From a virus, in the IMG/VR virus record IMGVR_UViG_3300020129_000334, positions 1 through 62,160 of that record: a DNA stretch of 62,160 nt; one strand, 5' to 3'. The position numbers and the translations under genes were made by a program. Below, piece after piece: positions 3,019 to 43,646 of the stretch. Below the pieces are notes generated by a model, which was not told where the DNA came from, did not search any database, and worked only from the letters and a program-made list of their open reading frames with translations. Numbering within the stretch: the first letter of the stretch is position 1; each line of letters starts with the position of its first letter.

Positions 3019-4566
3019 TCACGTTGTCCTTCGCTCCTTCGGCCACGTCACGTCCCAGCCATCGGATACGTCAATCTCCCGCACCTCCACGTTGGCCTTG
3101 CGCAGGCGGCGAGCCAGGTCGGTCGTACTGCGGCCTCCGGGGAAGGCGATCACGACGTCCGGCTTCTCCACGCCATCGTAGGTCTCGTAGCTGATGCGGT
3201 TGTCCTTGGCCCAGCTCCGCGCATAGCTTTCGACGCCGCTCCCGCCATTCTGCAGAACCATGTCCACGCCGCGCTCGGCCTGAAGGGCGTCCAGGTGCTT
3301 GCGAACGATGACGCGGCGGTGATTGCCGATCTTGGATCGCGAGCCGATGACGAGGACGCGCACGCCAAAAGCAGCGGTGGGGGTAGTCCCCTTTCCGGAA
3401 ACCTTACCGGAGGACGCCGCCTCGCCCCTGGTTCCATTCGCCTCCGGCAGCATCCCCCGCGCCGCCGCGAAGCGAAGGACATCCGCCGTCGAATGCGCCC
3501 CGACCTTCCTGTTGATCTTGGCGCGGTGTGTCTGAACCGTCTTGATGCTGAGCCCCAGCTTCTTCGCGATGCCGGCATTGGTGGCGCCGTCCACGATCAG
3601 ATCGAACACCTCCCGCTCGCGTGCCGAAAGCTTCTCGAGCCCAGAGTCGGTGCGGACCGGAGCCTTCGGAATCTCAAGCCCATGAGCGAAACGAACGACG
3701 TCCGCCGTCGAATGGGCCGTACCGAGCACACGGTAAATGCTGCCGAGGTGCGTTCGGATCGTGCTGATGCCGAGCCCGAGCTTTGCGGCGATCTCATTTC
3801 CGCTCATTCCCTCTGCAACCAAGTCGAACACCTCGCGCTCCCGTGGGGTCAGCTTCGCGAGCTTCGACACATCCGGTGGCGCGATCCTGGACGGGGGCGC
3901 TTCCCTCAGGTTCAGTCGCTTGGCCAGCCGCGCCATCGCTGACTCGAGCGGGCCCAGTTGCAGCGCCAGGCCGATCGCCGCCAGCTCGCCGACGTCGGAG
4001 CGTGCCGCCTGCTCGAGAAGCTGCACGACCGTCGCGATCGCCTCGAGCCCCTCACGTGCCGGGCTTGTGGCCGAGGCCTCCCCAATGAGCGCGCCGAGCG
4101 GAACACCGAGCCCCTTCGCCAAACCGATCGCTGTCGAAAACTTCGGGTCCACGTTTCCCCATTCCATGCGTGAGATTTGCGTGTGATGCGTTGAGCTTCG
4201 CTTGGCCAACTCCGCCTGCGTCCATCCGCGCGCCTCGCGAAGAGCGGCCAGCTGCTTCCCGAAGTCCGTCATGCTCGGAATCTCCGCGATCGGCTCCAGC
4301 TCCTCGGCCGGTGGCAGATCGGGAATGTCGTTCGGATCGCCGTCGAGCAATTGGCCCATGGTGATGCCGAAGACGTGCGCCAGGTTCGCGAGCGTGGAGA
4401 GATGCAGGTCCATGTTGGCCTCCCCCAGCTCCAGCCGATTCACCTGACGCCGATCCGTCCCCGTCTTCTTGCCCAGCTCCCCCAAGCTCCACCCGCGAGC
4501 CGCCCGAAGCGCCCGCACGCGCGTAGACAGAACGGCGCCCAGTCCCGGCGGAAGTTGACCCCTCAT
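3019..4566 (-). CDS. Multidomain regulator: XRE-XRE-LuxR-LuxR-SLOG (DUF2493)
   Basis: A 515-residue protein with five readable domains. Two XRE/Cro-type HTH domains come first (about residues 8-66 with ARGWSLGELGKKTG; about 98-160 with ARGWTQAELAKRSS). Two LuxR/GerE-type HTH domains follow (about 236-300 with LTPREREVFDLVAEGMS; about 308-375 with LSAREREVFDLIVDGAT). The C-terminus is a Rossmann-like SLOG domain of the DUF2493/YspA type (about 400-510), with VLVIGSR, a central GGSGVES and VVIAFPGGRSTTDLARR. SLOG domains are thought to bind or process nucleotide-derived ligands, so this looks like a ligand-sensing DNA-binding regulator. It is the last gene of the long leftward operon, and its ATG overlaps the preceding 43-codon gene as ATGA. 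DNA targets and ligand are unknown. Confidence 0.85.
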   Translation of the reverse strand: MRGQLPPGLGAVLSTRVRALRAARGWSLGELGKKTGTDRRQVNRLELGEANMDLHLSTLANLAHVFGITMGQLLDGDPNDIPDLPPAEELEPIAEIPSMTDFGKQLAALREARGWTQAELAKRSSTHHTQISRMEWGNVDPKFSTAIGLAKGLGVPLGALIGEASATSPAREGLEAIATVVQLLEQAARSDVGELAAIGLALQLGPLESAMARLAKRLNLREAPPSRIAPPDVSKLAKLTPREREVFDLVAEGMSGNEIAAKLGLGISTIRTHLGSIYRVLGTAHSTADVVRFAHGLEIPKAPVRTDSGLEKLSAREREVFDLIVDGATNAGIAKKLGLSIKTVQTHRAKINRKVGAHSTADVLRFAAARGMLPEANGTRGEAASSGKVSGKGTTPTAAFGVRVLVIGSRSKIGNHRRVIVRKHLDALQAERGVDMVLQNGGSGVESYARSWAKDNRISYETYDGVEKPDVVIAFPGGRSTTDLARRLRKANVEVREIDVSDGWDVTWPKERRTT

Positions 4567-9564: not shown

Positions 9565-10128
9565 TCAGAGGCTCAGTTGCCAGTACCAGTGCTCCCAGGG
9601 CTCCCAGTCGGCATCGTTCGCGCCCCCGAGCTTGACCTCCGCATAGAAACCGCTCGTCCAGCCTCCGATGGGATCGCAGATCGTGGCATTGCTGCACCAC
9701 ATGCGGCGGAGGACCAGGCCGTCATTGTCGTGCGTGATCTTCCCGTTCCAATTCAGCGTCCACCGCTGGCGAGGATTGTTCGGGTCGCAATTGACCGTGC
9801 CGATATTGTAGGCCAGATGGTCCCCAAACTCGTCCAGATTGCTAAGGCACTTCCAATTCCACTTGCTGACGATCTGGTGCGTGTTGAGGTTGTAGGCCCA
9901 TTGCTGATTGATCAGGCCATTGCAGTCCCACATCGCCACGTAGGCGCCATTCGTGTTGTTGAAGGCATACACGTCGAGGCACTGGCCGGCTGCCTTCAAA
10001 GAGCCGATATCGTAGGTGGGCGGCGCGGAGACGGCTTGGGCCTGTGTGCTGGTTTCCTCGCTCGAGGTAACAGGTGCGGCGCAGGCGGCGAGAGCGAGAG
10101 CGAAGATGAAAATGTATTTGCGGATCAC
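9565..10128 (-). CDS. Ricin-B-type lectin lipoprotein 1, 187 aa
   Basis: GTG start at 10128. The N-terminus is a lipoprotein signal with lipobox ALAAC (Cys16), followed by an SSEET-rich linker. The mature part is a ricin-type beta-trefoil-like lectin: CLDVYAFN, WDCNGLINQQWAY and RQRWTLNWNGK show the repeated Q-x-W signature and WDCNG turns. Such domains bind galactose-type or other glycans. It is the most downstream of three tandem paralogues, followed by an outer-membrane barrel. It is probably anchored in the outer membrane of the lysogen; why a phage carries it is unknown. Confidence 0.8.
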   Translation of the reverse strand: MIRKYIFIFALALAACAAPVTSSEETSTQAQAVSAPPTYDIGSLKAAGQCLDVYAFNNTNGAYVAMWDCNGLINQQWAYNLNTHQIVSKWNWKCLSNLDEFGDHLAYNIGTVNCDPNNPRQRWTLNWNGKITHDNDGLVLRRMWCSNATICDPIGGWTSGFYAEVKLGGANDADWEPWEHWYWQLSL

Positions 10129-10159: not shown

Positions 10160-10747
10160 TCAATTGACGGTCAGTTGCCAGGTCCAGCGTTCCCAGGTCT
10201 GCCAATCGGCGTCATCGCACTTCCCGAGCATTACGGCCGTCCAATAGCCGTGCGTATAGCCCCCAGCGCCGTCCGGATTCGTGACTGCATGGGTGAACCA
10301 CTGACGACGCATGCACCATTCTGGATGGGTGTCGTAGATGATCTTTCCGTTCCAGTTGAGCGTAAACCGCTGGCGCTCGTCGTTGGGATCGCAGTCATTC
10401 ATGCCGATGGATATAGCCCCCATCCCGTACCAATCGTGATTCCACGTGGTAAGGCATTTCCAACTCCACTGGCTCACGATCTGGTGCGTGGCGAAGTTAT
10501 AGGCCCACTTCTGATTTTGGAGACCGTTGCAGTCCCAATTGGTCAGCGTACCGAGGGCGCTAAGTGTGTTGAAAGCGTAGACGTCGAGGCAATAGCCGTT
10601 CTCCTTCAAAGATCCGATGTCATAGCCGGGGGGCGCAACGACGGCCTGCGATTGGCTGCCGGTTTCTTCGGATGACGACGTGGGAGCCACGCACCCGGGC
10701 GCAGTCAGCGCAACGAAGATGGCCAACGGGAAAGTCTTACGAATCAT
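10160..10747 (-). CDS. Ricin-B-type lectin lipoprotein 2, 195 aa
   Basis: Paralogue of the neighbour. I take the second of two tandem ATGs (10747; the first is at 10750) because AGAGGAC then sits at a normal distance. The signal peptide ends in a lipobox-like APGC (Cys19), then SSSEETGSQSQAV. Lectin repeats are seen as CLDVYAFN, WDCNGLQNQKWAY and RQRFTLNWNGK. Divergence from copy 1 (for example Phe replacing Trp in one Q-x-W) argues for an old duplication under diversifying use. Confidence 0.8.
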   Translation of the reverse strand: MIRKTFPLAIFVALTAPGCVAPTSSSEETGSQSQAVVAPPGYDIGSLKENGYCLDVYAFNTLSALGTLTNWDCNGLQNQKWAYNFATHQIVSQWSWKCLTTWNHDWYGMGAISIGMNDCDPNDERQRFTLNWNGKIIYDTHPEWCMRRQWFTHAVTNPDGAGGYTHGYWTAVMLGKCDDADWQTWERWTWQLTVN

Positions 10748-10770
10748 CATGTCCTCTTTGCGGTTGGATT

Positions 10771-11283
10771 TCAGTCCCAAGCGAAGGTGGAGTAATAAGG
10801 CCATTCGGAATCGTGGCAGCCGGCGAGAAACAAAGCGTCCCCGCTCCCATGGCTGTTGCCGGGGCTATGGTCCCAGTATTGGGCACGCAGGCACTTGCCA
10901 TCGTACTGGTTGATGATCTCGCCGCTGAGGCTGTCGAATGACCAGCGCTGATTTGGCAGTCCGTTGCAGTCCCAAAGGCCAACGGAGGTATGGTCAAAGC
11001 CGATGTTGTCGAGGCACTTGCCGTTGTACTTCGAGACGATCGCATGCGTGTCGGCGTTGTAGACCCAGCCCTGATTGACGAGGCCGTTGCAGTCCCAGAG
11101 ATCGAGCGTGAGATTGCCGTTGCGCGTGTTGAACGAGAAGACGTCGAGGCAAAGACCGCGGGTCCGGATCGTCCCGAGATCGGTGACATACGCCTCGCTC
11201 GTTGTGCCGGTGTCTTCGGATGGCGCTGGGGCCCCACATCCGCAAAGAAGCGCGAGCAGCCCGAGGGGAATTAGCCGGCGCAT
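10771..11283 (-). CDS. Ricin-B-type lectin lipoprotein 3, 170 aa
   Basis: First of the three in transcription order. ATG 11283 overlaps the previous stop (TGATG). The signal peptide MRRLIPLGLLALLCGCG has a lipobox around Cys14/Cys16, then SEDTGTTSEAY. The trefoil repeats are the most regular of the three: CLDVFSFN, LWDCNGLVNQGWVY, CLDNIGF, LWDCNGLPNQRWSF, CLRAQYW. It is a predicted outer-membrane or surface lectin. Confidence 0.8.
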   Translation of the reverse strand: MRRLIPLGLLALLCGCGAPAPSEDTGTTSEAYVTDLGTIRTRGLCLDVFSFNTRNGNLTLDLWDCNGLVNQGWVYNADTHAIVSKYNGKCLDNIGFDHTSVGLWDCNGLPNQRWSFDSLSGEIINQYDGKCLRAQYWDHSPGNSHGSGDALFLAGCHDSEWPYYSTFAWD

Positions 11284-41775: not shown

Positions 41776-42420
41776 ATGAGCAATTCCCACTGGCCGGACT
41801 CCAACCTGATGGCGCTGAAGGGCGTCGCCGCGCGCCTGGGCATCGAATGGCGGGATCTTCTCGCCGTCATGGCCAACGAGAGCGCGTGCCTGCCGGACCC
41901 CCCGCACAACGGCCCTGCGCGCGGCCTGATTCAGTTTGAGCCGGAGACGCTGCACCGGTTGGGCTGGAACGGGAGCCCCAACGACTTCGCGCGGGCCAAC
42001 GGGGTAGCGGAGCAGCTCGATTACGTGGAGCGGTACTACCTGCCGTACGCGCGCTCAGGCTTGCTCGCTCCGGGGCTTGGGGCGCTCTATACGGCGACGT
42101 TCCTCCCGGCCCTTCTTCGCCATGCGGGGGACACCGATTACGTGCTCTGCGGGCTGACAGGGCCCCTGGCGTGGGCGTACCGCTCTAACCGCGGATTCGA
42201 TCGCGAAGGGAAGGGGACGATCACCGTCGGGGACCTCATGACCGCGGCCCAGCATGCCCTTGAGCGCGTAGGGCTGGCCCAGGAGATCATCGCCCGGCTG
42301 GAAGCGATCGAAGGGGATGCCGAGCCCGCCGCCGTGGCCATTGACGTGACCGATGGGGGCCAGGATAAGCCGGCCTTCCTCGTTCCGCCGGCCAATGACA
42401 CGGACGAAGAGGCGGGATAA
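41776..42420 (+). CDS. Lytic transglycosylase-type endolysin, 214 aa
   Basis: I start at ATG 41776 (MSNSHWPDSNLMALKGVAAR), which has a GAGG site. A TTG at 41713 overlapping the preceding stop would add 21 residues. The motif VMANESACLP carries the catalytic Glu of the SLT/goose-lysozyme-like fold (Glu35 from this start), and PARGLIQFEP supplies the G-L-x-Q block. It cuts peptidoglycan glycan strands at lysis. The C-terminal tail has another PAND-type motif. Last gene of the rightward virion/lysis block. Confidence 0.8.
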   Translation: MSNSHWPDSNLMALKGVAARLGIEWRDLLAVMANESACLPDPPHNGPARGLIQFEPETLHRLGWNGSPNDFARANGVAEQLDYVERYYLPYARSGLLAPGLGALYTATFLPALLRHAGDTDYVLCGLTGPLAWAYRSNRGFDREGKGTITVGDLMTAAQHALERVGLAQEIIARLEAIEGDAEPAAVAIDVTDGGQDKPAFLVPPANDTDEEAG

Positions 42421-42497
42421 AGCGCGGGCGACAAAATCGCAGTGTCTGGGGGTCAGGCTTGCGCCCGGCCAAGAAATTCGCCTTTCGGCGCCAGCTC
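42421..42497. other. Gap after the endolysin with a small hairpin
   Basis: Contains CGCC-TTT-CGGCG (42478-42489 region), a short strong hairpin, without a following T-run. It lies between the end of the rightward lysis genes and the leftward array of structured elements, so it could serve as a weak terminator for either direction. Confidence 0.3.
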
Positions 42498-42566
42498 CTG
42501 CTGGTACGAGGTGGAGTCGAACCACTTCCTGGATGTAGACCCTACGGCATTCGCCCGCGCCAGCAG
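42498..42566 (-). ncRNA. Structured tRNA-like element B
   Basis: Read on the minus strand, CTGCTGG (42566-42560) pairs perfectly with CCAGCAG (42504-42498), closing a 69-base element. Inside are a GGC-GAAT-GCC mini-hairpin and a T-arm-like hairpin GTGG-TTCGACT-CCAC (42525-42511). It shares AATGC...TAGGGTCTACATC with element C and part of element A. It lacks a proper anticodon arm, and the T-arm does not abut the closing stem, so it is not an ordinary tRNA. Confidence 0.45.
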
Positions 42567-42572
42567 CGTAGC

Positions 42573-42755
42573 CTACGTCTTCGGGCAGCGACAGCCGTTA
42601 TTGAGGATCACGTCCAGCTCAAGACGGACCGCCTCGTAGGCCGCCCCACGAAGCTTGTGCTCCTCGCCCGCTAGAGGCTGAAGACGAATCCGCACGTCCG
42701 ACTCCGCCTCGCAGACGTCGCAGATCACGTTGAGGTAGATTCGCGGGTGCTTCAT
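42573..42755 (-). CDS. Small Cys-pair protein inside the RNA array, 60 aa
   Basis: ATG 42755 gives MKHPRIYLNVICDVCEAESD, a strand plus CDVC knuckle, then a charged helix and a C-terminal CRC. Amino-acid composition is normal, unlike the upstream part of the frame, so I call only this part. It lies between elements C (its immediate leader) and B. Function unknown; a gene whose leader is a structured RNA might be regulated by it. Confidence 0.55.
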   Translation of the reverse strand: MKHPRIYLNVICDVCEAESDVRIRLQPLAGEEHKLRGAAYEAVRLELDVILNNGCRCPKT

Positions 42756-42767
42756 GGGCTGAAAAGT

Positions 42768-42835
42768 GCCGACGACAAGGGTACTGCTGGCCGGACTCGA
42801 CGTTTGCGATGTAGAGCCCGATTGCATTCGTCGGC
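42768..42835 (-). ncRNA. Structured element C (leader of the 42573-42755 gene)
   Basis: The closing helix GCCGACGA (42835-42828) / TCGTCGGC (42775-42768) is a perfect 8-base inverted repeat. Inside, CGGGCTC (42820-42814) pairs with GAGTCCG (42798-42792) with one G-U, leaving a loop that starts TACATC. The internal-loop sequence AATGC is shared with elements A and B. It ends 12 bases before a start codon. Confidence 0.45.
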
Positions 42836-42843
42836 TGAATAGC

Positions 42844-42978
42844 GCTGGTGACAAAGGGCGTAGAGATGTTTTTCGCGCTCTACCAATTGAGCTACCGCAG
42901 ACTCGCGCCTGCGACCTGGACTCGAACCAGGAGCCTCGACTGTTACAAGCAGTGTAATCCCTACAAGCATTCACCAGC
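42844..42978 (-). tRNA. Element A: possible circularly permuted tRNA-Thr (TGT)
   Basis: On the minus strand the order is: outer helix GCTGGTG, second helix GTAGGGAT, anticodon arm ACTG-CTTGTAA-CAGT (anticodon TGT at 42947-42945), T-arm CCTGG-TTCGAGT-CCAGG (42931-42915), acceptor 3' strand TCGCAGG. A 6-base link follows, then acceptor 5' strand TCTGCGG, TA, D-arm GCTC-AATTGGTA-GAGC (42892-42877), then ATCTCTAC and CACCAGC closing the two outer helices. The acceptor strands pair 7 of 7 with two G-U. All tRNA parts are present, but the 3' half precedes the 5' half. The alternative is two adjacent degenerate tRNAs. Confidence 0.45.
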
Positions 42979-42981
42979 AGT

Positions 42982-43074
42982 CCACGCCAGCGGAATCGAA
43001 CCGCCGCCCCCCGGACCTCTCCCGGCTTTCCCTTTCAGAGCCACGGAAGCAATTCGGGCACACCGAGCGCGTGG
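42982..43074 (-). ncRNA. Element D: tRNA-like sequence with long variable region
   Basis: On the minus strand CCACGC (43074-43069) pairs with GCGTGG (42987-42982). The T-arm-like GGCGG-TTCGATT-CCGCT directly abuts the 3' acceptor strand GGCGTGG, followed by A, as in a real tRNA. The middle (about 60 bases) gives no convincing anticodon stem. It could be a decayed long-variable-arm tRNA or a tRNA-derived structured RNA. Confidence 0.4.
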
Positions 43075-43166: not shown

Positions 43167-43646
43167 TCACCGTTTGCCCGCAGCGCCCACGTAGGCATTG
43201 AAGGTGCTGGTAAAGGCGGCCTTCCAGCTCCAATCGTCCATGACCCAGGCCGCGAATTGCTGGTCCGTGAGGTTGATTTCGGTGAGCGTCGTCATCTCCA
43301 GCGCCTTGATCGCGCGGTCGTAGTCCTTCGTATGCTCGCTGGGCTCCATGACGGCAAAGTGCGTCGTGACCGGCTTTCCCGTCTTCGCGTCCCGCAGCGC
43401 ATTCTCCAGCATGGCGATCACTTCATTGCGGAAGCCCTCGGCGGCTACCTTGTACTGCGCTTCATGGTCCTTTCGGTTCTTCAGCACGACGGCCAGCAGC
43501 TCGGCCTTGTTGACCGGAATCAGGTTTCGTCCGTCAGGATTCTGGAACACGGCTCCTCCCTTCGTTTCAGTGGGTGAGATCAAGCGTGCTTCGTAAACGT
43601 CATAGCCAGCGAATTCGAGCGGCATCCAATCAGAAGGGGATGTCAT
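43167..43646 (-). CDS. Phage protein of unknown function downstream of recombination genes, 159 aa
   Basis: Start MTSPSDWMPLEFAGYDVYEA at ATG 43646 overlaps the previous gene by 17 bases; ATG 43625 is an alternative. Conserved-looking segments HFAVMEPSEHTKDYDRAIKA and FAAWVMDDWSWKAAFTSTF recur in phage proteins encoded near single-strand-annealing genes. No catalytic motif identified. Last gene of the leftward recombination module. Confidence 0.65.
   Translation of the reverse strand: MTSPSDWMPLEFAGYDVYEARLISPTETKGGAVFQNPDGRNLIPVNKAELLAVVLKNRKDHEAQYKVAAEGFRNEVIAMLENALRDAKTGKPVTTHFAVMEPSEHTKDYDRAIKALEMTTLTEINLTDQQFAAWVMDDWSWKAAFTSTFNAYVGAAGKR

Follow-up and report, generated by a model that had tools for sequence, protein, structure and literature searches.

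A bacterial Y RNA of the YrlA type (Rfam RF02553) has two parts, a long stem to which the ring protein Rsr (Ro60) binds and a domain similar to the acceptor, D and T arms of tRNA, and the YrlA/Rsr/PNPase machinery is known (PMC8394870). Ro60 proteins of phages are already known as well (PMC7824862, PMC7765460), and YrlA has been listed in one Mycolicibacterium prophage (PMC8190616). Phage loci with Rsr and Y RNA (Ro-like genes of actinobacteriophages, jumbo phages, Myxococcus phage Mx1) resemble the locus described here in that a Y RNA system is carried by a phage, whereas the present contig has the RNAs only. Another comparison is offered by the circularly permuted tRNA genes of algae and archaea, which mature by cutting at the BHB motif, circularisation and opening of the acceptor (PMC3978253). 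In these genes, found in red and green algae and in one archaeon, the 3' half precedes the 5' half and the ends are held together by helices, and both features recur in the RNA described here. To our knowledge, BHB maturation of permuted tRNA genes has not been described for bacteria.

The window is the whole of IMG/VR record IMGVR_UViG_3300020129_000334, a viral DNA of 62,160 nucleotides. A first-pass annotation had read one of its minus-strand segments as a candidate circularly permuted tRNA-Thr gene, and the coordinates it gave were correct within one base. The RNA, here called Y-A, is 137 nt long and runs on the minus strand from 42979 down to 42843; it is a YrlA-type Y RNA with a complete permuted tRNA-like module (Rfam RF02553, model R1, alignment A3). 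It begins with the 5' strand of the putative Rsr-binding stem, TGCTGGTG (42972..42979), which continues into GAATGC (42967-42972), a motif that is invariant in 31 aligned YrlAs. The 3' strand, CACCAGCG (42843..42850), is preceded by the likewise invariant TTGTC (42850-42854), and a helix scan gave 8 pairs between the two strands, with T-G as the outermost. Inside this stem lies the inner Y stem, formed by GTAGGGAT (42957..42964) and ATCTCTAC (42860..42867), also with 8 pairs, of which one is G-U. Both enclosing helices of the first-pass annotation are thus present. The tRNA-like parts stand between them in the order that had been claimed. An anticodon-like arm, ACTG-CTTGTAA-CAGT (42939..42953), has a stem of 4 bp, a loop of 7 nt and the anticodon TGT at 42945-42947. 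It is followed by a T-arm of 5 bp, CCTGG-TTCGAGT-CCAGG (42915..42931), and by an acceptor-like stem, TCGCAGG(C GCGA G)TCTGCGG (42895..42914), in which the 3' strand comes first and all 7 pairs form, G-U in two of them. The link of 6 nt between its strands, CGCGAG, makes an extra C-G pair and a GCGA tetraloop of GNRA type that seals the stem; CCA is absent. TA and the D-arm GCTC-AATTGGTA-GAGC (42877..42892) come next. The T-arm and D-arm were placed by the Rfam match and the alignment, and the T-arm also by the pairing test described below.

Judged by its sequence, Y-A is a bacterial Y RNA of the YrlA type and the first of three tandem Y RNA genes, and the order that had been called permuted is the ordinary order of a YrlA. 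The Rfam YrlA model covers Y-A from end to end (41.9 bits, E 7.5e-8, at a permissive threshold with 701 bases searched), with one insertion of 15 nt, which is the anticodon arm of the first-pass annotation; this arm is absent from the Rfam YrlA consensus. At its own cut-offs Rfam gave no match in the window. The score of Y-A lies under the gathering score of RF02553 (41.9 vs 69 bits), which is a curation threshold and not a structural feature. The gathering score is reached by 6 of the 21 bacterial YrlA matches listed at E 1e-9 or better; these came from 498 genomes of two phyla, on which the Rfam model was run solely to gain further examples. A covariance model, R1, was built from 30 other YrlAs with the window left out. 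It matched Y-A with 88.4 bits (E 3.1e-19, 62 kb searched) and had exactly three matches in the whole window, the other two being Y-C (38.3 bits, E 3.1e-7) and Y-B (33.0 bits, E 5.7e-6), with no others up to E 10. Y-A has the expected base at every invariant column of the alignment of the 30 YrlAs and the window. It has a closing stem with GAAUGC on the 5' side and UUGUC on the 3' side, in a helix of 8 pairs, and it has the T-arm, acceptor-like stem and D-arm in permuted order, both of which characterise YrlA. The inner Y stem, the sealing of the acceptor-like stem and the tandem arrangement are further likenesses to RF02553. Y-A differs from that family in its anticodon-like arm of 4 bp, in its place in a virus record without rsr and in its score under the Rfam cut-off. 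The folding energy of Y-A (z -1.7) was not decisive against shuffles.

In the first-pass reading the transcript would be circularised at the 26/27 junction and the acceptor then opened to give a working tRNA. The order of the parts and the ends held by helices agree with such a gene. ARAGORN found no tRNA in the normal order, and when the parts were put in tRNA order it called tRNA-Thr(TGT). However, 39 of 70 YrlA instances, some of them overlapping, also received a tRNA call after reordering. The acceptor of Y-A is closed by the C-G pair and GCGA with no CCA, and TTCG or GAAA is found at that place in other viral YrlAs; the anticodon stem has 4 pairs only, and the ends carry the motifs of an Rsr site. 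The contig had no match to RtcB, and two more Y RNAs, without a cloverleaf, adjoin. Known permuted tRNA genes differ from Y-A in the same respects of the sealed acceptor and the Rsr-site motifs, and Y-A belongs to a bacterial virus in which no splicing enzyme was found. Since YrlA explains the locus better, both by model and by motifs, we regard a working permuted tRNA gene as very improbable. What stands of the claim is the order of the parts and the two conserved enclosing helices; what does not is the gene type, given the GAAUGC/UUGUC motifs, the tetraloop without CCA and the Y RNA neighbours. A tRNA hung from a Y stem at position 26/27 would have the permuted order, and this implies neither circularisation nor an aminoacylated tRNA. 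An apparent permuted tRNA in a phage is in this way resolved as a known RNA family, and it serves as a warning that YrlAs will turn up when permuted tRNAs are searched for.

Relatives were sought with DNA patterns. Strict patterns copied from Y-A gave nothing in viral contigs, and the patterns were therefore relaxed. The relaxed scan gave 20 loci in genomes, mostly with two to four tandem Y RNAs that have GAATGC, a TACAT motif and TTGTC in common, and 104 loci in viral contigs, about twenty of them with YrlAs. One pattern match, L051, was left out because it has no T-arm. Many of the arrays adjoin a gene for a protein of some 530 aa, which has a Ro60 vWA domain and mostly also a TROVE match, and is Rsr (alignment A1). 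Bacterial and viral relatives build the same tandem arrays, many of them adjoining Rsr. The first-pass annotation had held that loss of the outer helices in relatives would speak against it; the helices are kept, but the RNAs that keep them are YrlAs, many of them next to rsr. In the 30 YrlAs and the window, the inner Y stem had on average 6.9 of 7 pairs within sequences and 5.3 across them, and the acceptor 6.6 of 7 within and 3.8 across. None of 2000 partner shuffles equalled the observed pairing of these two stems. Pairing of the outermost stem had been used in picking the relatives and was hence left out of the covariation evidence. The pairing also bears on the idea that the segment holds two partial tRNAs in normal order, the end of one and the start of the next, for example from recombination at an attachment site. 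The succession of T-arm and acceptor 3' strand, then acceptor 5' strand and D-arm, is what such a remnant would have, but the acceptor strands pair with each other at 7 of 7 positions and co-vary in relatives, the enclosing motifs would be left unexplained and ARAGORN finds no tRNA, so that we give this idea practically no weight. Searches with a neighbouring gene and with the terminase found no close relatives of the phage, and a search with RecT found distant relatives only, none with Y RNAs near RecT.

The YrlA assignment is joined by two further Y RNAs directly downstream of Y-A, which the first-pass annotation had missed. Y-B (42768..42835, minus strand) is a minimal Y RNA of 68 nt with an Rsr-binding stem, whose helix has 7 pairs, an inner stem CGGGCTC/GAGTCCG and no tRNA-like module. 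It is like the minimal bacterial Y RNAs of such arrays (YrlB type) in size, stems and motifs, being of the same length as the bacterial Y RNA at L042:1432-1499, and unlike them it is borne by a phage and does not stand beside rsr. Y-C (42421..42561, minus strand) is 141 nt long and has a Rsr-site helix of 10 pairs, a T-arm GTGG-TTCGACT-CCAC with the T-loop core at 42513-42523, and two more hairpins, but no D-arm. Both were found by helix scan as well as by R1, and both fold better than shuffles (z -3.4 for Y-B and -3.6 for Y-C). When both strands of the 62 kb were searched for a helix of at least 7 pairs enclosing GAATGC and TTGTC, three sites were found, all on the minus strand and adjoining, whereas 400 dinucleotide-shuffled copies of the window had 3 between them. 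Likewise, the three matches to GGTTCRANNCC in the window all lie within the cluster of Y RNAs and T-arms. The array is flanked by two gene blocks, one on the plus strand that ends at 42420 and one on the minus strand that ends at 43167, and it lies, on the minus strand, downstream of the block with the phage recT gene. No promoter or terminator was recognised near it. An ORF of 60 aa between Y-B and Y-C (42573..42755, minus strand), which had no match in Pfam, is possibly a gene on one transcript with the Y RNAs. Just upstream of Y-A there is a third T-arm-like hairpin, GCGGTTCGATTCCGC (42989-43005, minus strand), with a possible acceptor TCCACGC/GCGTGGA around it. It was rejected as a tRNA or a fourth Y RNA, as it has no Rsr site, no ARAGORN call and only 9.7 bits with the YrlA model.

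The contig had no Rsr match by TROVE, by the vWA_Ro60 model or by the Rsr alignment; the last two served to retest the absence, because Pfam TROVE detects bacterial Rsr only weakly. An exact direct repeat of 18 bases, GGTTGTATCGACGACATA, occurs at the contig ends (1-18 and 62143-62160) and at no other place in the contig. The genome may therefore be complete and terminally redundant or circular, whereas its record gives it as linear. Rsr was lacking from 13 of the 21 other viral records in which a YrlA-type match was seen; several of the 13 are 47-183 kb long and others are short fragments. Linkage to rsr is therefore usual for YrlA but not defining, and phages whose Rsr/Y RNA system consists of the RNA half alone are added to those that have both, such as viral contigs L055, L060, L088, L089 and L106, where Rsr and arrays are both present. 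A viral Rsr is matched by 292 phage records, Myxococcus phage Mx1 among them. Y RNAs near Ro60 were reportedly described in bacteria and phages by Chen et al. in 2014, so that phage Y RNAs as such are not new. One record, OR845705.1 (Escherichia phage ECO95 1-6-1, 1,748 bases), codes for a fragment of Rsr that shares 41% identity with a viral Rsr and is apparently fragmentary or odd as a record. The best phage match to the RNA of the window is an annotated tRNA-Arg(tct) of Microbacterium phage Magritte (L157, 2344-2420), about 450 bases upstream of a Ro-like gene, and tRNA-like pieces are seen near Ro-like genes in Magritte and other phages.

It could be asked whether the array is a non-functional remnant, acquired from a bacterial rsr-yrl locus and under no selection in the phage. 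There is no rsr, and the searches gave no close phage relative that has this array, as such an origin would have it. Decay, however, would break helices and motifs, and their intactness speaks against it: all three RNAs have intact Rsr-site helices (7 to 10 pairs) with the conserved motifs, and Y-A has every invariant column. Y RNAs without Rsr also occur in other viral records. We find a remnant improbable. It is likely, in our view, that the locus is a YrlA-type array of three Y RNAs whose stems are bound by the Rsr of the host, with the module of Y-A acting as tether and gate. The Rsr ring would bind the stem that carries GAAUGC and UUGUC. As the phage has no rsr, it is the host's Rsr that would be loaded, and the phage Y RNAs would compete for it with the Y RNAs of the host. 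As in studied YrlAs, the module of Y-A would fold like a tRNA and be modified by tRNA enzymes. By analogy with other species it could dock on PNPase or another tRNA-binding protein, and as tether and gate it might change RNA decay or repair during infection.

The anticodon-like arm adds another dimension to the comparison with other YrlAs. A hairpin of at least 3 pairs with a loop of 7 nt, U33 and a purine at 37 was present in 14 of the 30 YrlAs in which the segment before the T-arm has at least 18 nt, against a mean of 1.4 and a maximum of 6 in shuffles. The loops included CTTGTAA, shared by the window and viral contig L060, and CTTCTAA, CTTCCAA, CTGTTAA, CTACGAA, CTCATAA and CTGTAAA. Of the 41 unique modules whose link has at least 5 bases, 8 have CCA in the position immediately behind the discriminator base, where 0.7 would be expected; neighbouring offsets gave 2 and 1. 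The binomial tail (6e-7) is a guide only and these frequencies are not those of all YrlAs, because the patterns favoured longer modules and exact D-arm letters and kinship among the sequences was uncorrected. The recurrence of anticodon arms with many anticodons, together with CCA after the discriminator, suggests that whole tRNAs, of more than one isoacceptor, were the ancestors of YrlA modules. On these sequence features, the YrlAs that have the arm or CCA look like complete permuted tRNA mimics. A YrlA in a Spirochaetales MAG (L048:4219-4356) has a complete anticodon arm (CTTCTAA), and its discriminator base is followed at once by CCA. It is a look-alike of a whole permuted tRNA-Arg(TCT) on a Y stem, and opening of its acceptor could in principle yield a CCA end.

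The same arms bear on what Y-A might do. It could be a tRNA decoy, a complete mimic with an anticodon arm that soaks up anticodon nucleases or other host defences directed at tRNA. Such a role is compatible with the identity as a Y RNA and differs from host Rsr loading in function. In Y-A the proper anticodon loop CTTGTAA is kept and the reordered module is called as tRNA-Thr(TGT); anticodon arms are far commoner in YrlAs than in shuffles, and the many viral records with YrlA but no Rsr mean that the RNA may act alone. A role of the tRNA-like domain of YrlA as competitive inhibitor has been proposed, but in Salmonella the nuclease did not cut YrlA itself (PMC7790460). Against a decoy are also the perfect Rsr-binding motifs in all three RNAs, Y-B without any tRNA-like part, and the fact that no defence nuclease is known for the host of the phage. 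We take the decoy to be a serious alternative, although an unlikely one. Loading of host Rsr by the YrlA array is still the preferred working. A broader proposal takes in both functions, namely that Y-A belongs to a subclass of YrlAs in which whole tRNAs were permuted onto the Rsr-binding stem, captured repeatedly from different isoacceptors, and that phages without rsr employ them to seize the Rsr of the host or as decoys, for instance for anticodon nucleases. We put this forward tentatively, as a possibility that is less likely than not. Given the anticodon-arm mimicry and the CCA scar in some YrlAs, both a descent of YrlA from whole tRNAs and a part in countering defences that cut tRNA can be tested directly. 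Y-A as a single RNA is of less interest than the orphan arrays of viruses and the mimicry of complete tRNAs.

Other genes of this phage were observed in the course of the analysis. Two adjoining minus-strand genes (9565-10128 and 10160-10804) code for small proteins that resemble secreted proteins or lipoproteins and have ricin-type beta-trefoil lectin domains, which is unusual cargo for a phage. Another minus-strand gene (3019-4566) codes for a protein of 515 aa that has several helix-turn-helix domains, a LuxR-type domain and a SLOG-family (YAcAr) domain in a single chain.
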